Position numbers and translations under genes: made by a program. The notes beneath the pieces were generated by a model, which saw only the letters and a program-made list of their open reading frames with translations, did no database searches and was not told where the DNA came from. Shown here piece after piece: positions 37,349 to 47,899 of a stretch of DNA of 64,000 nucleotides. This DNA comes from a bacterium (lineage in GTDB: Bacteria; Planctomycetota; SZUA-567): contig QKCJ01000005.1 in the NCBI GenBank assembly GCA_003245715.1, forward strand, positions 62,001 through 126,000. The letters are read 5' to 3'. Each line of letters opens with the position of its first letter. Positions within the stretch are counted from its first letter, which is position 1.

Positions 37349-38152
37349 ATGATTATGACAGGCGCAAATCTTTCCGGTGAAGGAGAACCGGAGGAGGATA
37401 TCTCCGGCGGACTTCTGACGGTTGATATCGGTAATTCGAATATCAAGCTACTCTGCTACAAAGATGGAAAAGTTGTCTGGCGTGACACCATCCCCACCCC
37501 TGAGATCAATTACGAAATCGCTGCCGGTTTTTTAAAATCCTCACAGGCGATAAAGGTTGCTGTCTCTTCGGTGGTTAAACCGGTTGATACTTTTTTTGAT
37601 GAGGGGATGCGTGAAGCTGGCGCGGAGGGTGTTCTTTTTATAAGGCCCGGTGAAGTTGAAATAATGCCGCATGACCTTCTTACCCCGGAAACTACCGGCG
37701 CAGACCGTTTGCTGGCCAGTTACGCGGCGAAGATGCTCAAACCCAAAGAGCCGGTTATTGTTATTCAGGCGGGTACGGCTCTGGTCGTTAATGCCGTAGA
37801 TATTGACGGGGTTTTTCGTGGCGGTTTTATCCTACCCGGCCCTGAAATGTGGCTTGACAGCCTGACCAGTGCCGCGCAGCTTCCTTATTATCCGTATCAG
37901 GATATCGCCTGGGGGACAAGGTCGGCCGGACGCCAGACCAGTGAGGCGATTCTTGGTGGGGCGGGAGTCGGTTTGCGCGGGGCTTTGCGTGAAGCGGTCA
38001 GGATTCTGGCAATGTCCCTTGGCGGCGCTCCGGTTCTTGTTTTTACCGGAGGCTGGTCGCAATCACTCTGTGAGTTTCTGCCTGGAGAAAACCGTCCTGA
38101 TCTGGTTAATCTCGGCATTTTCCTGTACGCAAAAAATAACGGCTTTATCTGA
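37349..38152 (+). CDS. coaX: Type III pantothenate kinase
   Basis: Phosphorylates pantothenate in the first step of coenzyme A synthesis; the type III enzyme is not inhibited by CoA. ATG 37349, preceded by AAGGGGCGG, gives 267 residues. Actin-like ASKHA motifs are visible: VDIGNSNIKL (phosphate 1), TTGADRLLASYAAK, QAGTALVVNAVD and GGFILPGPEMWL. It follows cbiL by 13 bases and ends eight bases before the promoter of the aromatic operon. Confidence 0.94.
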   Translation: MIMTGANLSGEGEPEEDISGGLLTVDIGNSNIKLLCYKDGKVVWRDTIPTPEINYEIAAGFLKSSQAIKVAVSSVVKPVDTFFDEGMREAGAEGVLFIRPGEVEIMPHDLLTPETTGADRLLASYAAKMLKPKEPVIVIQAGTALVVNAVDIDGVFRGGFILPGPEMWLDSLTSAAQLPYYPYQDIAWGTRSAGRQTSEAILGGAGVGLRGALREAVRILAMSLGGAPVLVFTGGWSQSLCEFLPGENRPDLVNLGIFLYAKNNGFI

Positions 38153-38160
38153 AAAATATC

Positions 38161-38188
38161 TTGACAACCAAGGGCTTAGCGGTAATAT
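38161..38188 (+). promoter_or_regulatory. Promoter of the aromatic amino acid operon
   Basis: A perfect TTGACA and TAATAT are separated by 16 bases (TATAAA three bases further on is an alternative -10). Transcription would start near 38195, about 30 bases before the leader peptide ATG. Confidence 0.75.
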
Positions 38189-38224
38189 AAACAAAAAGAT
38201 TTATTTTTTAGGAATGCAATAATA

Positions 38225-38305
38225 ATGCTTAATAACGCCGCTAGTTTTTTTGCCAGCTTTACCTGGCGCTTCTGGTATTATGGAAGCGCGAGCGGTCGTT
38301 TGTAA
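38225..38305 (+). CDS. trpL: Aromatic leader peptide (TrpL-type) of the trp-aro-phe-tyr operon
   Basis: A 26-codon reading frame begins at ATG 38225 and ends at TAA 38303-38305. Eight of its residues are aromatic: Phe at 8, 9 and 12, Trp at 14, Phe at 16, Trp at 17 and Tyr at 18 and 19, with the core W-R-F-W-Y-Y. It lies between a strong promoter and an intrinsic terminator just before trpE. This is the layout of a ribosome-mediated attenuator. Shortage of charged Trp, Phe or Tyr tRNA would stall the ribosome at codons 14-19, next to the segment-1 RNA arm at 38284-38293. No ribosome binding site stronger than AGGAATG is visible. The peptide has no expected function of its own. Confidence 0.82.
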   Translation: MLNNAASFFASFTWRFWYYGSASGRL

Positions 38306-38405
38306 GCATTGTTTATCAAGCGGCTGCGAGCTTTTTAAAAGGTTCGTGGCTTATACAGAGTTTCAACAAAAGCCACGGACAACCAGTTCGTGGCTTTTTA
38401 TTTTA
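38284..38405 (+). promoter_or_regulatory. Transcription attenuator of the aromatic operon (mutually exclusive hairpins)
   Basis: Four RNA segments can be read. Segment 4 (GTTCGTGGCTT, 38386-38396) pairs with segment 3 (38370-38380) to form the terminator, a 13 bp stem with a 5-base loop followed by TTTTTATTTTATT. Segment 2 (38342-38352) is an exact 11-base copy of segment 4 and can pair with segment 3 instead, giving an antiterminator. Segment 1 (AAGCGCGAGC, 38284-38293), just after the aromatic codons, can pair with segment 2 through ten pairs with one bulge and two G-U pairs. Stalling at Trp or Tyr codons would cover segment 1 and favour antitermination. Confidence 0.8.
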
Positions 38406-38464
38406 TTACAGAATTTTACAATTATTTATATATTTTTCCGGAAACCGTGCTTGGAAGGTAGAAA

Positions 38465-39964
38465 ATGTTTTTACGCGAATATCCGACAAAATCCGAATTT
38501 GCAGAACACGCAAAAAAATCCGGAGTTGTGCCGGTTTGTGAGGAGATTCTGGCTGATTCAGAGACACCGGTATCTCTTCTTGGACGCTTCTTTGCTAATG
38601 ACCGCAGCCGCAAGGTCTTTCTGCTTGAGTCAGTAGAAGGCGGCGAGCGTTGGGGGCGTTACAGTTTTCTTGGTGTTTCGGCTCACGCGACTGTACGAGT
38701 TTATGCAAAGCATATTGATATTGCCCGTGGTGAGGATATCGAACGGATTGAGCATTACGGCAAGCCTCTGCCGGCGCTTCGTGAACTGATGGCGCGTTAT
38801 ACTCCAGCCAATATCCCACAACTTCCGCGCTTCTGGGGCGGACTTGTCGGGTACTTTACTTATGAATCAGTCTCGTTTTTTGAGAGTCGCGTGCCGAATA
38901 AGCTCGGTGATAATGAGCCGCTGGCAGTATTTGTCATCCCGGATGAACTGCTGATTTTTGATAATGTCAGTAACAGCCTGACAGTTTCGGTTCTGACCTA
39001 TCCCGAGAAAGGTGCGGACACGGACAAACTTTTTGACAGCGCCAAGGAGCGCATTAAAGAACTGATTACAAAAATCAAGTCAGCCGTTGAGCCTGAGTCT
39101 GAGCCAATTAACGGTGAACTTGAGCTTAAGGCGGTAATTGATCCGGAAGTATACAGGCAGAAGATTGTAAAAACCAAAGAGATGATTGTTGATGGTGAGA
39201 TTATTCAGGCGGTTATTGCGCAGAAATTCACCACTCAGGCACCACAGGACCTTATTGCTCTTTACCGCGCCCAGCGCTACATCAATCCTTCACCTTATAT
39301 GTACTTCATCAATATCGCAGACCAGACAATTGTCGGCAGTTCACCAGAAACCATGGTTCGCCTAGAAGGACGTCAGGCGACAGTCCGTCCGATTGCGGGT
39401 ACGCGAAAGCGTGGCGTTACTGAGCAGGAGGACAGGGCGCTGGCTGATGAGCTGCTTAAAGACGAAAAAGAACGCGCCGAGCATCTGATGCTGGTTGATC
39501 TTGGTCGTAATGATTTGGGACGAGTGGCGGTAACCGGTACTGTTCAGGTGACGGATCTGATGTTTATCGAGCGCTACTCACACGTCATGCACCTTGTTTC
39601 CAATGTTATCTGTGATGTGCGTGATGAGTTTGACGCTTTTGATCTGTTCGGTGCGACCTTCCCGGCGGGTACGCTTTCGGGTGCGCCGAAAGTTAGGGCG
39701 ATGGAAATTATTGCCGAGCAGGAAGATTTCTCACGGGGCTTTTATGGAGGCGCGGTCGGTTATATCTCATTCAACGGTAATATGGATTTTGCGATTACTA
39801 TCCGTACGGCCAGCGTCAAGGATGATGAACTGACGGTTATTGCCGGTGGTGGCATCGTTTATGATTCCGACCCCGAGTTTGAACGTCAGGAATCACTCAA
39901 CAAGTCGCGCAGTGTGCAACGCTCGCTGGAACTGATGAAGCAGTCGCTGCGCCACCGTCAGTAA
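38465..39964 (+). CDS. trpE: Anthranilate synthase component I
   Basis: Converts chorismate and ammonia (delivered by TrpG) to anthranilate. The 499-residue protein starts at ATG 38465 after GGAAGG. The N-terminal domain holds the LLES motif (about residues 58-61) that forms the tryptophan feedback site, so the enzyme is likely inhibited by Trp. The catalytic part shows RPIAGTRKRG, the metal-binding HLMLVDLGRNDLGRVA, SYSHVMHLVSNV-like YSHVMHLVSN, and GTLSGAPKVRAMEII. First structural gene of the operon. Confidence 0.97.
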   Translation: MFLREYPTKSEFAEHAKKSGVVPVCEEILADSETPVSLLGRFFANDRSRKVFLLESVEGGERWGRYSFLGVSAHATVRVYAKHIDIARGEDIERIEHYGKPLPALRELMARYTPANIPQLPRFWGGLVGYFTYESVSFFESRVPNKLGDNEPLAVFVIPDELLIFDNVSNSLTVSVLTYPEKGADTDKLFDSAKERIKELITKIKSAVEPESEPINGELELKAVIDPEVYRQKIVKTKEMIVDGEIIQAVIAQKFTTQAPQDLIALYRAQRYINPSPYMYFINIADQTIVGSSPETMVRLEGRQATVRPIAGTRKRGVTEQEDRALADELLKDEKERAEHLMLVDLGRNDLGRVAVTGTVQVTDLMFIERYSHVMHLVSNVICDVRDEFDAFDLFGATFPAGTLSGAPKVRAMEIIAEQEDFSRGFYGGAVGYISFNGNMDFAITIRTASVKDDELTVIAGGGIVYDSDPEFERQESLNKSRSVQRSLELMKQSLRHRQ

Positions 39965-40000: not shown

Positions 40001-40579
40001 ATGATTTTAATGATAGATAATTATGATTCGTTTACCTATAACCTTGTTCAGTACCTGCGTATGCTTGATGTTGAGGTGCAGGTCAGGCGTAATGACGAGA
40101 TCACTGTTGAGGGAATTGAAGAGCTGAACCCCGAGGCGCTGGTTATCTCACCCGGACCAAGCTGTCCTGATAATGCCGGTATATCACTTGCGGCAGTCAG
40201 GGCTTTTTCCGGCAAGATTCCGCTACTCGGCGTTTGCCTTGGGCACCAGACGATCGGTCAGGCATTCGGCGGCAAGGTTATTCACGCAAAAAAAGTAATG
40301 CACGGCAAGGTTTCAGAGATAAAAACTGATGGTAAAGGTGTATTTGCCGGTATGGATAAGCCGATAAACGTTATGCGTTATCATTCTCTTGCGGTTGAAC
40401 GGGAGTCTTTACCTGACTGTCTTGAGATTTCGGCGGAGACTGATGATGGCGAGATCATGGGCCTACGCCACAAGGAATTCAAGGTCGAGGGGATGCAGTT
40501 TCATCCTGAGTCAATTATGACGACTGTCGGCAAGCGTATGCTGCGTAATTTCCTTAAACTTGCGCGCGGTGAAGAATAA
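40001..40579 (+). CDS. trpG: Anthranilate synthase component II (glutamine amidotransferase)
   Basis: Hydrolyses glutamine and passes ammonia to TrpE. The 192-residue class I amidotransferase begins [19 protein letters not shown] and has the nucleophile Cys79 in [13 protein letters not shown], and the His-x-Glu pair in MQFHPESI. It is not fused to trpD. It could also serve p-aminobenzoate synthesis, as TrpG/PabA sometimes do. It follows trpE by 36 bases. Confidence 0.96.
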
Positions 40580-40624: not shown

Positions 40625-41638
40625 ATGTTTACTGACCTTTTGAAAAAAATTATAACCCGCACTGATCTGAGTGAGTCTGAAGCTGCTGAGGTGGTTGATT
40701 GCATCCTTTCCGGCGAACTTAACAATTGTCAGATTGCCGGTTTTCTTACAGCTCTTGCCACGAAAGGCGAGACCTTCGCCGAGCTTGCCGGCGCGGCGCG
40801 GGCGATGCGCTCAAAGGCTACCCGTATTCAGGTCAGCGGCTCGCCTGTAATTGATATCGTCGGTACCGGCGGTGACGAGCTTCATACTTTTAATGTTTCT
40901 ACAACTACAGCGTTTGTTGTTGCCGGTGCGGGGGTGGTAGTTGCCAAGCACGGAAACCGTTCAGTATCCAGCAAGTGCGGCAGTGCGGACGTTCTTGAGG
41001 CGTTGGGGCTGAATCTGGATCTTGACCCGGAAGTTGTTGAAGAGGCAATTGAGGCGATCGGCATTGGCTTTCTCTTTGCGCCAAAATATCACGGCGCAAT
41101 GAAATATGCTGCGCCTGTGCGTAAGGAACTTGGTGTGCGCAGTATCTTTAATATGCTCGGGCCGCTTACTAATCCGGCCGGTGCGTCCTGTATTCTGCTT
41201 GGTGTTTACGCTCCTGAGCTTACGGAGATGTTTGCTGAAGCGTTAAAACTGCTTGGGGCTAAACGAGCGCTGGTTGTGCATGGACATGACGGCATGGATG
41301 AAATCACAGTGACTGCAGAGACCCGTGTTACCGAGCTTGTTGACGGGCAAATCAAGACTTACGACATTATGCCGCAGCAGTATTTTGGCGAGGTGGCTGA
41401 TCCGGAGGATCTGGTTGGCGGTGATGCGAAGGTCAATGCGGAGATTATGAAGAAAATCCTTGATGGCGAGAAAGGCCCGAGGCGCAATATTATTCTTCTT
41501 AATACTGCGGCGGCATTGGTCGCTGCAGGTAAGGCTGCAGATATCCGCACGGGAATCAAGCTCGCAGAAGAATCTCTTGACAGTGGTGCGGCTCTTCTGA
41601 AGCTCAACAAACTGATTGAATTTACCCAGAACAACTGA
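40625..41638 (+). CDS. trpD: Anthranilate phosphoribosyltransferase
   Basis: Transfers phosphoribosyl from PRPP to anthranilate. The 337-residue protein has the GTGGD motif (DIVGTGGDELHTFNVST) that binds PRPP pyrophosphate, KHGNRSVSSKCGSADVLEALG, and FNMLGPLTNPA. TTAATG with an AGGAG-like GGGGAGT stands at the start. It lies third in the operon and is followed by a weak hairpin. Confidence 0.97.
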   Translation: MFTDLLKKIITRTDLSESEAAEVVDCILSGELNNCQIAGFLTALATKGETFAELAGAARAMRSKATRIQVSGSPVIDIVGTGGDELHTFNVSTTTAFVVAGAGVVVAKHGNRSVSSKCGSADVLEALGLNLDLDPEVVEEAIEAIGIGFLFAPKYHGAMKYAAPVRKELGVRSIFNMLGPLTNPAGASCILLGVYAPELTEMFAEALKLLGAKRALVVHGHDGMDEITVTAETRVTELVDGQIKTYDIMPQQYFGEVADPEDLVGGDAKVNAEIMKKILDGEKGPRRNIILLNTAAALVAAGKAADIRTGIKLAEESLDSGAALLKLNKLIEFTQNN

Positions 41639-41675: not shown

Positions 41676-41688
41676 TTGAGGATTATTG

Positions 41689-42465
41689 ATGTCTGATTTT
41701 TTAACCAGGATTATGGAACTTAAAAAAGCTGAAGTTGAAGAGGCCAAGCAGAATGTCGGTGAGATATCATTGCGGGTGGCCTCTGGTGCGCGAACTGATT
41801 ACCGGTCCTTCTATAACGCGCTCAAGGAAGAGGGCGTTAATGTAATTGCTGAGATCAAGCGCGCCTCACCAAGCAAGGGCGATATCCAGCCTGACCTTGT
41901 TCCGGCTCAGATGGCGGCGCTTTATCAGGAAGGTGCGGCGGCGGCGGTTTCTGTCCTTACTGAGAAGAATTTCTTTAAAGGCTCACTTGATGATCTCCGT
42001 TCAGCCCGTGCGGCGTGCAACCTGCCGGTACTGCGCAAGGACTTTATCTTCGATTCATATCAGCTTTATGAAGCGAGTGCGGCCGGTGCTGATGCGGTTT
42101 TACTTATCGCGCGGATTCTTGATAAAGAATTACTCTCAGACCTCCTTGCTCAGGCGCATGCGTTATGTATTGACGCGCTGGTAGAGATTCACAATGAAGA
42201 CGACCTTGATAAAATTCAGGGGCTTGGTGCAAAAATAGTCGGCATCAATAACAGGGATCTTAAAACGTTTGATACGGATCTTGATATCGCGCTTAAACTT
42301 GCGCGCAATCTTGAGCCGGAGCAGATTGCGGTTGCGGCCAGTGGCATATTCACACGGGATGATATTGATAAATATCTGCCGGAGGTTTGTTGTTTTCTTG
42401 TTGGTGAGAGTATCGTGCGTGCGGAGAGTCCTTCCGGTTTTCTGCGTGAGCTTAATGGCAGGTAG
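41689..42465 (+). CDS. trpC: Indole-3-glycerol-phosphate synthase
   Basis: Closes the indole ring from carboxyphenylaminodeoxyribulose phosphate. The 258-residue TIM barrel starts at ATG 41689. Motifs are VIAEIKRASPSKGDI, with the catalytic Glu and Lys, VLTEKNFFKGSLDDL, LRKDFIFDSYQLYEA, VGINNRDLKTF and VAASGI. It is separate from trpF, which starts 18 bases downstream. Confidence 0.97.
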   Translation: MSDFLTRIMELKKAEVEEAKQNVGEISLRVASGARTDYRSFYNALKEEGVNVIAEIKRASPSKGDIQPDLVPAQMAALYQEGAAAAVSVLTEKNFFKGSLDDLRSARAACNLPVLRKDFIFDSYQLYEASAAGADAVLLIARILDKELLSDLLAQAHALCIDALVEIHNEDDLDKIQGLGAKIVGINNRDLKTFDTDLDIALKLARNLEPEQIAVAASGIFTRDDIDKYLPEVCCFLVGESIVRAESPSGFLRELNGR

Positions 42466-42483: not shown

Positions 42484-43122
42484 ATGCAGATTAAAATTTG
42501 CGGTTTAACCATAGCAGATCAAGCCAAAGAGTGCGTTGAACTTGGCGCGGATGCGATTGGACTTATTTTTTATCCGCCGAGTCCGAGAAATATTTCAATC
42601 TCTGACGCGGTGGCAATCCGTGATGCGATTGGTGATGATGTGGCACTTGTCGGTGTGTTTGTTGATATGTCCCCAGAGAAGGTGATGGCTGTCTATAAGG
42701 ACTGCAGGCTTAACACCATTCAGCTTCACGGTGATGAATCGCCTGAATATGTACGTGAACTTGCAGCGAAAGATGTACGCATTGTCAAGGCTCTAAAGTC
42801 GCATGAAGCGCTTAATGATGCTGCGCGGTATAAGGCTGATGCGTTTCTGCTTGAACTTGGCAAAGGTGTTCTTCCCGGAGGTAACGGCGCAGACTGGGAC
42901 TTTTCTTCTGTCAGCGGTTTTGACTATCCTTTTGCGCTGGCTGGCGGAATTAATCCTGATAATATCGCCATGGCCATTAACGGTGCTTCACCACAGGCAA
43001 TTGACCTCAGCTCATCTGTTGAGTCCGCCCCTGGCATAAAAGATATGGCAAAAGTCAAAGAGATAATCGACCTGGCCAGAGAACTATCTCCGGCTGATGA
43101 TAAATCTGAAAGGGTTTTTTAA
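42484..43122 (+). CDS. trpF: Phosphoribosylanthranilate isomerase
   Basis: Catalyses the Amadori rearrangement before indole-ring closure. The 212-residue TIM barrel begins MQIKICGLT, where the Cys is the general base, and contains [28 protein letters not shown] with the acidic catalytic residue, [11 protein letters not shown] and IDLSSSVES. Its stop is separated from the trpB start by one base. Confidence 0.96.
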
Positions 43123-43123
43123 A

Positions 43124-44335
43124 ATGAAAGCAATTACAAATTACGCTGAGCCTGACAGTGGCGGTCATTTTGGACAGTTTGGCGGTCGTTATGTCGGCGA
43201 GACCTTGATGCCGGCGATTCTTGAGGTTGAAGAAGCTTACCGCAGATTTGTTGCCGGCGCTGATGAGGAATTCATGGACAAGTTCCATTATCTGCTGCGT
43301 CATTATGTCGGCCGTGAAACTCCGCTGTTTCATGCCCAGCGCCTGACTGAATATGTCGGCGGTGCGCAGATTTATCTAAAACGTGAAGATCTGACCCACT
43401 CTGGTGCGCATAAGATTAATAATACCATCGGCCAGTGCCTTCTGGCAAAATATATGGGCAAGAAAAAGGTTATCGCTGAAACTGGTGCTGGTCAGCATGG
43501 GGTGGCGACAGCTACTACGGCCGCGCTTATGGGGCTTGAATGCAAGGTCTTTATGGGGGCTGAAGATACGCGCCGCCAGGCTCCGAATGTGCAGCGCATG
43601 AAGCTTCTTGGCGCTGAGGTTGTTCCGGTCAATTCCGGCGCGGCGACCTTGAAAGATGCGATGAATGAAGCGTTGCGTTATTGGGCTGGCGCGGTTGAGG
43701 ATACTTTTTATGTGATTGGTACGGTTGCCGGTCCGCATCCGTATCCGGCGATGGTGCGTGATTTTCAGAAGGTAATCGGCGATGAAGCCAAGCGCCAGAT
43801 TTTCGAGATGTGTGACCGCCTTCCTGATGCGCTGGTTGCCTGCGTTGGTGGCGGCAGTAACGCCATGGGGCTGTTCTACTCATTTATAGGCGAGCCTGTT
43901 GACATGATCGGAGTCGAAGCGGCAGGTGAGGGCATCAGTACCGGCAGACACGCTGCGCCTCTTTGCCATGGCAGTGTGGGTGTGCTTCATGGCTGCAAGT
44001 CTTATCTTCTGCAGGATGAATGGGGGCAGGTATCGGAAGCACATTCAATTTCTGCCGGCCTTGACTATCCCGGTGTAGGCCCGGAGCATTCACTGCTCAA
44101 AGATCTGAAGCGGGTGGAATATCGCTCTATTACTGATACCGAAGCGCTTAATGCATTTAAGACCTTATCTCGGCTTGAAGGTATTATTCCGGCGCTTGAA
44201 AGTTCACACGCATTGGCTGAGGGGATGAAAGAGGCTGCCCGTCGTGATAAGGACCAGATTGTTCTGGTTAATCTTTCGGGGCGTGGCGATAAGGACCTGG
44301 CGCACGCGATCTCTGCTCTAGGTGGGCTTGAATAA
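43124..44335 (+). CDS. trpB: Tryptophan synthase beta chain
   Basis: Pyridoxal phosphate enzyme that condenses indole with serine. ATG 43124 gives 403 residues; AAAGGG lies about ten bases upstream. The family start [19 protein letters not shown] is clear. The PLP lysine is Lys97 in [14 protein letters not shown], followed by [13 protein letters not shown], and [10 protein letters not shown] binds the cofactor phosphate. It is the classical TrpB1 type, matching the adjacent trpA. Confidence 0.98.
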
Positions 44336-44365: not shown

Positions 44366-45157
44366 ATGAATAGAATAAATAAAAAATTTGCGGAGTTGAA
44401 AGAGCAGGGGCGCAGCGCGCTTGTCGGTTTTATCTCTGCGGGTGACCCGGACTTTGATTTGTCGTATGAAATAATCGACGCCATGTGCAGAGCCGGACTT
44501 GATGTTCTTGAGCTGGGTGTACCTTTTTCTGATCCGACTGCGGATGGTCCGGTTATTCAGAGATCATCACAGCGTGCCCTTGCTTCCGGCATAAACATGG
44601 AAAAGTGCATGGCCATGGTTGGCAAGCTGCGCATCGAACATGAACTGCCGATTATTCTTTTCAGCTATTATAATCCGATCTTCAAGTACGGCGTAGAGCG
44701 TTTTTGCAATGACGCCAAGATTGCCGGTGCTGACGGTACGCTGATTGTTGACCTTCCGCCTGAAGAGGGTGCGGAGCTTAAGGGCAAGTTTACCGATGAT
44801 TTCTCGGTTATCCGACTGATTGCGCCAAATACCTCACTTAACAGGGTGCAGAGTATTGCCAGTGATGGTTCCGGTTTTCTGTATGTAATCTCAAAGACCG
44901 GTGTGACTGGTTCGGGCGGGCTTGATACTGAAGCAGTCGCTAAGCACGTTGCGCAGATTAAAACAATTACCGATCTGCCGCTTTGCGTTGGCTTTGGCAT
45001 TTCTACCGCAGAGCAGGCCAGGGCTGTTGCCGGTTGCGCGGAAGGCGTTGTCATCGGCAGTGCTTTTGAGCGTCTTATTGAAGATAACGTCGGCAAATCA
45101 GATCTGCCTGAGATAATGTATTCGTATGTCAGTGAGATCAGAGCCGCGCTTGGTTAA
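44366..45157 (+). CDS. trpA: Tryptophan synthase alpha chain
   Basis: Splits indole-3-glycerol phosphate into indole and glyceraldehyde-3-phosphate and channels indole to TrpB. The 263-residue TIM barrel has the two catalytic acids at Glu49 in LELGVPFSDP and Asp60 in TADGP, the same numbers as in the Salmonella enzyme, plus SKTGVTGSGG and VGFGIS. Directly downstream of trpB by 30 bases. Confidence 0.97.
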   Translation: MNRINKKFAELKEQGRSALVGFISAGDPDFDLSYEIIDAMCRAGLDVLELGVPFSDPTADGPVIQRSSQRALASGINMEKCMAMVGKLRIEHELPIILFSYYNPIFKYGVERFCNDAKIAGADGTLIVDLPPEEGAELKGKFTDDFSVIRLIAPNTSLNRVQSIASDGSGFLYVISKTGVTGSGGLDTEAVAKHVAQIKTITDLPLCVGFGISTAEQARAVAGCAEGVVIGSAFERLIEDNVGKSDLPEIMYSYVSEIRAALG

Positions 45158-45196: not shown

Positions 45197-46009
45197 ATGA
45201 AAAATCTTAAGCTGGCAGCCAAAAGCGCCAAAGAGGGAAAAACGGTTGTCGAGGTCGGTGATGTTCGTATTGGTGATGAATTTGTTGTTATTGCCGGTCC
45301 TTGCAGTGTTGAATCAGAGCAGCAGGTTCTTGAGAGTGCGATTGCCGTGAAAGAAGCGGGTGCAAAAGTTTTGCGCGGTGGTGCGTTCAAGCCGCGTACT
45401 TCTCCTTACGCCTTCCAGGGACTTGGCCTTAAAGGGCTGAAATTTCTCAAAAAGGCCGGCAATGAAGTAGGTTTGCCGATCATCACCGAGGTCATTGACC
45501 CGCGGGATGTTTCATGGGTTTGCGAGTACGCTGACATTGTCCAGATTGGCGCGCGCAACATGCAGAATTTCTCTCTTCTGCAGGAAGTTGGCAAGGCCGG
45601 TAAGCCGGTTCTGCTTAAACGCGGAATGTACTCGACAATAGCCGAGTGGCTTAACTGTGCTGAATATATCCTTGCTGAAGGTAATCCTAATGTTATTTTA
45701 TGCGAGCGCGGCATCAGAACCTTCGAGACATACACCAGAAACACGCTTGATCTGTCGGCGATTCCGTCAGTAAAAGAAGTCTCGCACCTGCCGATTGTTG
45801 TTGACCCTTCGCACGCTACGGGTAAACTTAGTCTTGTAGAACCGATGAGTCTGGCGGCTGTTGCTGCGGGGGCTGACGGCCTTATTATTGAGGTTCACGC
45901 TAACCCGTGCGAGGCCCTCTGTGATGGTGCACAGTCACTCGACGGCCCTGGCATTAAGCAGCTTATTGAAAAAGTCAATAAGCTTAATGCTGCTTATAAG
46001 GCTCTATAA
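45197..46009 (+). CDS. aroF: 3-deoxy-7-phosphoheptulonate synthase (DAHP synthase, KDO8P-synthase-like type)
   Basis: Condenses phosphoenolpyruvate and erythrose-4-phosphate, the committed step to chorismate. The 270-residue barrel is the short type I-beta kind: [11 protein letters not shown] with the metal-binding Cys, [34 protein letters not shown] and VVDPSHATG. There is no ACT or chorismate mutase extension, so the isolated chain lacks an obvious feedback domain. Control would then depend on the operon attenuator or a partner protein; that is inference. Confidence 0.95.
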
Positions 46010-46052: not shown

Positions 46053-47129
46053 ATGAAAGATGAAAAAATCGACCTTAGTTATGTGCGCCGCAAGATTGAC
46101 CAGCTTGACAACAATATGCTCCAGCTTCTACAGAAGCGTATGGAGGTTGCGCGTATCTCTGCGGTATTTAAAGACCCTGACAAGATTGATGACCCTAAAC
46201 GCGAGAGTGAAGTTGTCAAGGCCCTGACTGATCGCGAAAATGCTCTGCTAAAGGGCGAATTCATCGAAAGTCTGTATTCACTGATTTTTAAGGAGAGTAA
46301 ACGTATTCAACGCGAGACAACAACACTCGCTGCTTTTCAGGGTGAACATGGTGCGTACAGTGAATCGGCCTGCCGCTTGTGGAATCCGAACTTTGCACCA
46401 ATGCCTTGTGAAGAGTTTGCAGATATCTTTCGCGGTGTTGAAAGTGGCATTTATGATTACGGTGTTATCCCTGTCGAAAATACTCTCGGCGGTATGGTCG
46501 GACAGGTTAACGGACTGATGCTTTTCTCTGATGTCTTTGTTGTCGGCGCCATCAAGCTGCCGATTCATCATTGTCTGCTTGCTACACCTGGCACTGATTA
46601 CCGCTCGATCCGCCGTGTTTATTCCCATCCGCAGGCTCTGTCACAGTGCCGTGAGTATCTGCGTCGCCAGAACTTTGAGCCGATGCGCTATTATGATACT
46701 GCCGGTGCCGCGAAGATGCTCTCGAAGGAAAACCCGGCCTCAAGCGCCGCGATTGCTGGCAAGCTTGCCGCAAGCTATTATAACCTTGAGATTATTCAGG
46801 AAGATATCGAAGACCTTGACACCAATCAGACCCGTTTTCTGATTATTGCCAAAGAACCGACCCGAGGTGATGGCAACAAATGCTCTATCTGTTTCTGTAC
46901 TGACGACCGTGCCGGTGCGCTCTTCAAGGTTCTGCAGATTTTTGCCGACAAGAACATTAACCTTACTCGTATTGATTCAGTTCCGGAGCATCCTGGTGAA
47001 TTCGCGTTCTTCCTCGACTTTGATGGCAACCTGAAAGATCCTAATATCCAGGAAGTCCTTTCACGGGTTGAAGACGTTTCTGCCAATTACCGTTTCCTCG
47101 GCTGTTATGAGGAAAGGAGTGCGCTGTGA
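46053..47129 (+). CDS. pheA: Bifunctional chorismate mutase/prephenate dehydratase (P-protein)
   Basis: Carries out two steps to phenylpyruvate. The 358 residues give a chorismate mutase domain (about 5-90, LSYVRRKIDQLDNNMLQLLQKRM), a prephenate dehydratase domain (about 95-270, LAAFQGEHGAYSESA; VIPVENTLGGMVG; TNQTRFLIIA) and a C-terminal ACT domain (about 280-355). In ACT the usual phenylalanine-binding motifs read GALF and DSVP instead of GALV and ESRP. The tyrA start overlaps its last four bases. Confidence 0.95.
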   Translation: MKDEKIDLSYVRRKIDQLDNNMLQLLQKRMEVARISAVFKDPDKIDDPKRESEVVKALTDRENALLKGEFIESLYSLIFKESKRIQRETTTLAAFQGEHGAYSESACRLWNPNFAPMPCEEFADIFRGVESGIYDYGVIPVENTLGGMVGQVNGLMLFSDVFVVGAIKLPIHHCLLATPGTDYRSIRRVYSHPQALSQCREYLRRQNFEPMRYYDTAGAAKMLSKENPASSAAIAGKLAASYYNLEIIQEDIEDLDTNQTRFLIIAKEPTRGDGNKCSICFCTDDRAGALFKVLQIFADKNINLTRIDSVPEHPGEFAFFLDFDGNLKDPNIQEVLSRVEDVSANYRFLGCYEERSAL

Positions 47130-47899
47130 AGATATTTATTTACGGTGCAGGAAAGATGGGCGCATGGCTGACGGAAGAACTCTGCACAGACCATGAGGTC
47201 GCGGTTTATGACCGTGATATCAACAAACTGAAGTTTTTTTTCTCAGTAACCAGAATTAGCAAGCTTGAAGAGGTAACTGATTTCAAACCTGAGCTTCTGA
47301 TTAACTGCGTAAGCCTAAATCATACCCGTGAAGCGTTCAAGGAGGTTTTGCCGCTGCTTGATAAAAGTTGCATCCTTTCTGATATAATGTCAATCAAGGG
47401 CGATATTGAAGAATTCTACAAACAGTCCGGTCATCCGTATGCCTCTGTGCATCCGATGTTCGGTCCGACCTTTGCCAACTTGCGTAATCTCGAGAATGAA
47501 AATGCGATTATAATTTCTGAGTCATGTCAGGCCGGTAAGGATTTCTTTCACGAGCTATTCAGGAAGATTAAGCTCAATGTTTATGAGTTTACCTTTAAAG
47601 ACCATGACCGCGAGATGGCCTACAGTCTTTCTACACCGTTTACCTCTTCACTTGTCTTTGCCGCCTGCCTTGAGAAGACGGATGTTCCCGGCACGACCTT
47701 CCGCAAACACTATGATATTGCCAAGAAGCTGCTTGCCGAGGATGACAGCCTGCTTGTGGACATTCTCTGTAACCCAGAAACCCTGCGGCAGATTGAAGAG
47801 ATCAATAACAAGCTTAATTATCTTCGCCATATCATTATGTGTAATGACGCAGACGAGATGACAAACTTCCTTAACAAGTTACGAGCAAACCTTTATTAA
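47126..47899 (+). CDS. tyrA: Prephenate dehydrogenase (TyrA-type)
   Basis: A 257-residue NAD(P)-binding oxidoreductase that makes hydroxyphenylpyruvate from prephenate. GTG 47126 overlaps the pheA stop (GTGA). The Rossmann motif is IYGAGKMGAWLTEEL; HPMFGPTFANL supplies the substrate-binding His region. It is shorter and more divergent than common TyrA proteins and has no ACT domain, so Tyr feedback is not evident. It is the last gene of the aromatic operon, before a strong terminator. Confidence 0.85.
   Translation: MKIFIYGAGKMGAWLTEELCTDHEVAVYDRDINKLKFFFSVTRISKLEEVTDFKPELLINCVSLNHTREAFKEVLPLLDKSCILSDIMSIKGDIEEFYKQSGHPYASVHPMFGPTFANLRNLENENAIIISESCQAGKDFFHELFRKIKLNVYEFTFKDHDREMAYSLSTPFTSSLVFAACLEKTDVPGTTFRKHYDIAKKLLAEDDSLLVDILCNPETLRQIEEINNKLNYLRHIIMCNDADEMTNFLNKLRANLY

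Follow-up and report, generated by a model that had tools for sequence, protein, structure and literature searches.

Ten genes in the order trpEGDCFBA-aroF-pheA-tyrA lie on the forward strand, behind a predicted terminator, in the window, that is, the whole 64,000-nucleotide stretch of DNA analysed here (contig C3 of a 3.75 Mb genome in 63 contigs, with ~91% completeness). Profile matches identified trpE, encoding anthranilate synthase component I (38465..39964, TIGR00564), trpG (40001..40579, TIGR00566), trpD (40625..41638, TIGR01245), trpC (41686..42465, NF001377), trpF (42484..43122, NF002298), trpB (43097..44335, TIGR00263; the true start is probably slightly 3′ of 43097), trpA (44366..45157, TIGR00262), an aroF-type DAHP synthase gene (45197..46009, TIGR01361), and pheA for a chorismate mutase-prephenate dehydratase (46053..47129, profile match). 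The last gene of the operon, tyrA (47126..47899), encodes a divergent prephenate dehydrogenase that matched NF006409 at 1e-16, below the curated cut-off, and has homologues at the same operon position in two other genomes of combined aromatic operons, G127 and G062. These matches agree with the preliminary description of this DNA, which had placed genes for Trp synthesis, DAHP synthase, PheA and TyrA downstream of one attenuator. The operon pheA is the sole prephenate dehydratase (PDT domain) found in the genome, and the only other PF00793 protein is a KDO8P synthase, so that no further DAHP synthase of this family turned up in the genome. TyrA of the window type was found in only 6 of the 392 genomes of the phylum, and its gene adjoins pheA in all six.

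Upstream of trpE, a candidate sigma-70-like promoter, TTGACA-N16-TAATAT (38161..38188, forward strand, 10/12 consensus positions), was found where a promoter had been claimed, followed by AGGA (38210..38213) as a candidate Shine-Dalgarno sequence 11 nt 5′ of an ATG. From this ATG runs the proposed leader peptide ORF, MLNNAASFFASFTWRFWYYGSASGRL, of 26 codons and a stop (38225..38305, forward strand), to which a similar peptide exists in G127. Eight of its 26 codons are aromatic: Phe at codons 8, 9, 12 and 16, Trp at 14 and 17, and Tyr at 18 and 19, the two Trp codons being separated rather than adjacent. Given the composition of nearby proteins, the probability of at least two Trp, four Phe and two Tyr in 25 codons is ~1e-5. 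The aromatic leader described earlier is thus present, and the region carries a short predicted ORF with codons of the putatively regulated amino acids, as expected of a ribosome-mediated attenuator. Rfam covariance models gave no family above the gathering threshold in 37900-38700, and the leader is not claimed as a member of the Rfam Trp, Phe or His leaders. A Trp repressor as the main regulator was rejected, because no TrpR-family protein (PF01371) was matched in the ~91% complete genome.

Predicted competing RNA arms and the position of the ribosome

The 11-base sequence GTTCGTGGCTT occurs in exact copies at 38342-38352 and 38386-38396, and both are complementary to 38370-38380 (11 pairs, one G-U), precisely as first described. 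The second copy lies in arm F (38386-38398), which pairs with arm E (38368..38380) in a predicted 13-bp stem spanning 38368-38398 (-18.5 kcal/mol); arm F and the T-rich tail together occupy 38386..38405, and the assignment of this copy to an intrinsic terminator was retained. The first copy lies in arm D (38339..38352), whose pairing with arm E would form an antiterminator of -14.8 kcal/mol. The predicted antiterminator D:E and terminator E:F would be mutually exclusive, sharing arm E, with the T-rich tail placed before the first gene of the operon.

Two further helices were predicted upstream. Arm C (38317..38334) can pair with arm D (38322-38334 with 38339-38351; 13 bp, -15.4 kcal/mol) or with arm B (38292..38307), which lies within the last leader codons; the B:C helix joins 38292-38302 to 38317-38327, is extended by 38303-38307 with 38311-38315, and reaches -17.7 kcal/mol. 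Arm A (38221..38242) is predicted to pair with the B region when the leader is untranslated. Since both B:C and C:D are predicted, the region comprises six arms rather than the four segments originally proposed, and all five pairings of the his-type plan (A:B, C:D and E:F vs. B:C and D:E) are found. The arm just past the Tyr codons, the fourth arm of that proposal, does pair with the repeat copy in D (duplex of -12.5 kcal/mol), but the four-arm reading, with this arm as the partner of D, was set aside in favour of C:D, which is local and stronger.

The leader region folds with a z-score of -5.7 against dinucleotide shuffles, none of the 200 shuffles being as stable. In 2000 shuffles of the sequence running from the Tyr codons to arm D, the stability of C:D was never reached, that of B:C was reached nine times, and both together never. 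Across the 64 kb window, both strands included, the pattern of an 11-mer followed by its complement and by the same 11-mer within 80 nt occurs only once.

The check by folding under a ribosome mask, suggested in the preliminary description, was made with the front edge of the model ribosome 12 nt past the first base of the A-site codon, or 15 nt for a larger footprint. With the 12-nt footprint, B:C had a probability of 0.95-0.99 whichever of the eight aromatic codons the ribosome stalled at, the Phe codons 8, 9 and 12 being as effective as the Trp codons in opening the switch. From codon 21 onward B:C was 0.00, and C:D was formed with a probability of 0.99-1.00 before arm E was synthesised. 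With the 15-nt footprint the changeover came one codon earlier (B:C 0.00 from codon 20), and Tyr19 was intermediate at 0.89. The B:C probability is therefore 0.89-0.99 at the aromatic codons and nil past them, which places the switch boundary just after the last aromatic codon. The modelled loss of B:C falls between codons 19 and 21, while the outcome of D:E vs. E:F assumes kinetics: equilibrium folding of the full leader favoured the terminator even with a stalled ribosome, and equilibrium folding before arm F is made favoured D:E in stalled and unstalled states alike. Because equilibrium folding does not decide between D:E and E:F, the choice must be kinetic and rely on the order of folding; the co-transcriptional kinetics and the response to each single amino acid are both inferred.

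The proposed mechanism would then run as follows. With all three tRNAs charged, the ribosome would reach the stop codon and cover arm B, C:D and E:F would form, and transcription would end before trpE. With any one aromatic amino acid short, the ribosome would stall at one of the eight aromatic codons, all 5′ of arm B, and leave B free, whereupon B:C and D:E would form, the terminator would be blocked and the operon read. If the leader were not translated, A:B would pair and the terminator would form.

Mixed leaders before mixed operons in other genomes

The exact window leader is carried by one genome only, and the comparison of the leader in relatives suggested earlier was made with two other combined operons. 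G127 is a complete genome from the same phylum, with a TrpE 61% identical to that of the window; it carries in one run trpEGDCFBA-aroF-aroB-aroK-aroA-aroC-pheA-tyrA, that is, the window operon with aroB, aroK, aroA and aroC added. Its leader, MIKFAANNFYFGFNWRYWYRSGAVTVGLQF, includes F.F.WRYWY, so the aromatic core, F.F.WR[FY]WY, is common to the two leaders; their RNA arms differ. In G127 the arm immediately after the aromatic codons is predicted to act as an antiterminator by pairing directly with the terminator's 5′ arm, and in the model it stays free for stalls up to about Tyr19 and is lost by the stop codon. The G127 region (L112:147-14023) places much of the common pathway and the three end branches behind one leader, with apparent tandem terminators.

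The second combined operon, in G062, reads trpEGDCFBA-aroF-pheA-tyrA-aroF, and its leader, MNINSSRFNGFTRLNHWWWYYINGRGG (also written FNGFTRLNHWWWYY), contains WWWYY plus Phe and has the classical four-arm layout (1:2/2:3/3:4). The aromatic core is thus kept in G127, and the six arms of the window are conserved in neither G127 nor G062. Since the same arms are not kept there, the likeness of the window leader to the his attenuator is one of plan, not of descent.

On the TrpE tree the window and G127 group together with moderate support (89/80), and the TrpE of G062 lies far from that of the window. The window TrpE is also close to those of Desulfobacterales, while none of the 16 genomes of the window's own family has a close TrpE; those of two of them (L115 and L116) are only ~40% related. 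This placement of TrpE, distant from its own family and near G127 and Desulfobacterales, raises the possibility that leader and operon were acquired together.

Mixed leaders were also found in a second clade, the order of G530/G531 with 21 genomes, reached from loci L083 and L087 and covered by loci L141, L145-L161 and L162-L173. Leaders mixing Trp, Phe and Tyr, such as FWYFWRRFDGRYYYY and MNAFATYFWYFWRRFDGRYYYYRRPSKSVVCPAF, were present in 19 of the 21 genomes. In this clade tyrS lies between trpF and trpB in all 12 regions examined, the last of which, L173, is cut before trpB, and by similarity in L087 also. The operons checked further contain an AroFGH-type DAHP synthase, a prephenate dehydrogenase (tyrA) of another type, aroA and aroE. 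As their DAHP synthase and TyrA belong to families other than those of the window operon, comparison of the genes suggests that this aromatic operon was assembled separately. Most of the examined leaders have at their end an arm of the TGCCC type or the GUUUGUCC type, complementary to the terminator's 5′ arm, and in the FWYFW leaders the antiterminator arm is written in conserved V-C-P codons.

Several side observations were made at these and other loci. Most of the second clade carries an aldolase-like protein between tyrS and trpB (L087:16031-17005 and relatives), 88-97% identical between genomes and assigned to the 4-hydroxy-2-oxovalerate aldolase family below the cut-off. At L166:9080-10291 and L172:9908-11131 the same operon position holds a different tyrosyl-tRNA synthetase, only 28-31% identical to the others, as if replaced in place; that of L166 was confirmed by TIGR00234. 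In L039, the short ORF MHLVSARNFWFWWLFWRGGARLTG lies ~420-340 nt 5′ of aroF, before an aroF-trp operon, and carries FWFWWLFW, mixing Phe and Trp codons without Tyr.

Probable joint reading of Trp, Phe and Tyr codons

We consider it probable that the window leader is a ribosome-mediated attenuator that reads charged tRNA-Trp, tRNA-Phe and tRNA-Tyr jointly for one operon making all three amino acids. The observations behind this reading are the sequence elements, a structure beyond chance expectation, the modelled place of the switch, and the recurrence of mixed leaders before mixed operons. The earlier proposal of a single attenuator for three aromatic amino acids gains strong comparative support from the two other supra-operons and the independent clade, while its mechanism needs changing, the stalled ribosome acting through the free arm B.

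An ordinary Trp attenuator, in which only the two Trp codons matter and the Phe and Tyr codons are incidental, would suit an operon whose first gene is trpE, and is the form seen in related operons: the trp leaders of Desulfobacterales and Lentisphaeria are of the WWW type. Within the phylum, operons with trp genes only have the leaders NENWWLWRWQ (G216) and NSFYWCW (G215 and G211), and TTWRLWCSW was found in G240, where the contig ends after trpC. One or two Phe or Tyr codons also stand next to the Trp run in some Trp-only leaders (YFWWW, FYWCW). Phe and Tyr are however about three-fold enriched in the supra-operon leaders: they make up 18 of 73 non-Trp residues (25%) in the three of clade 1 (window, G127 and G062), on which the comparison rests, vs. 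21 of 245 (8.6%) in twelve Trp-only leaders (Fisher p 5e-4; Mann-Whitney p 0.013), and because residues within one leader and leaders within one clade are non-independent, for some comparison leaders the start codon was picked by eye, and some Trp-only leaders contain Phe or Tyr too, this enrichment is support, not proof. The mixture recurs in independent supra-operons, the window leader has just two Trp codons, which are separated, and in the model stalling at each of the Phe and Tyr codons throws the same switch as at Trp. Reading of Trp alone is accordingly judged unlikely.

The presence of a codon is by itself no proof of sensing. In Corynebacterium glutamicum the AroR leader before aroF has Phe-Tyr-Phe codons and responds to Phe, not Tyr, limitation (PMC11802643), and the window leader might likewise sense Trp and Phe (or Trp and Tyr) with the third codon silent. 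The Tyr pair in particular, Tyr18-Tyr19, sits at the edge of the switch, where the state at Tyr19 was less clean with the larger footprint. Tyr codons nevertheless occur in all three clade-1 supra-operon leaders and are dominant in the second clade, where the operon contains tyrS, and we regard such a two-input sensor as quite unlikely. That the arms are a plain constitutive terminator or chance hairpins beside an untranslated ORF is highly improbable: the E:F hairpin by itself would be a plain terminator, but the shuffle tests, the single occurrence of the repeat pattern in the window, and the persistence of the aromatic core in G127, where the RNA arms differ, all speak against it.

The joint reading of the three amino acids may also extend beyond the window. 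We think it somewhat favoured that pan-aromatic attenuators are a recurring, undescribed class, in which a trp operon merged with Tyr and/or Phe genes has a leader of matching codon mix on different RNA layouts, with two independent origins at least and probably three. The layouts among the mixed leaders are the six-arm one of the window, the direct B-arm one of G127 and the G530/G531 clade, and the four-arm one of G062. If the three-aromatic leader is real, the cell would control a branched pathway as a whole, and the codon content of a leader could be read as a record of what its operon makes, which would offer a rule, open to testing, for the annotation of attenuators in uncultured bacteria. 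The leader would also be an OR gate with three inputs found in nature, and one that could be transferred to a laboratory host.

Comparison with known leaders

Leaders that read a single amino acid (Trp, Phe or His) are the classical cases. Escherichia coli trpL and the actinobacterial trp attenuators resemble the window leader in having Trp codons before trpE and a competition between antiterminator and terminator, but read Trp alone, whereas in the window leader Phe codons outnumber Trp codons two to one, and there are Tyr codons in addition, and extra arms. Several amino acids of one pathway group are read by a single leader in ilvGMEDA and thrABC, which are therefore alike in principle, although the amino acids are the branched-chain ones or Thr and Ile, not aromatic.

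Among aromatic leaders, the Phe-rich leader peptide of E. coli pheL controls pheA (PMC11802643); pheA has its own leader there, whereas in the window it is the ninth gene under a mixed one. AroR of C. glutamicum shares with the window leader two kinds of aromatic codons and a DAHP synthase controlled by ribosome stalling, but has no reported Trp codons, no effect of Tyr and no trp supra-operon behind it. A 2005 list gives aromatic supra-operons, with trp and/or aro, pheA and tyrA genes together, and sequence-predicted attenuators for Desulfovibrio vulgaris, Enterococcus and Streptococcus; the word ‘leader’ does not appear in it, and its passages on them name no leader peptides or codons and leave the attenuator types unstated (PMC1173090). 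A search of an open-access library gave no description of a leader that reads Trp, Phe and Tyr; the preliminary description had likewise known of none.

The closest likeness is to the his leader of enteric bacteria, in which A:B, C:D and E:F terminate, B:C and D:E read through, and a stall 5′ of B decides. The arm logic (arms A-F) is the same in the window leader; the differences are that the his attenuator reads one amino acid, vs. three here, and serves another operon, and no sequence similarity is claimed. What is new in the window leader would therefore be its three inputs, with an individual response inferred for each, on an otherwise his-type ribosome-mediated attenuator.
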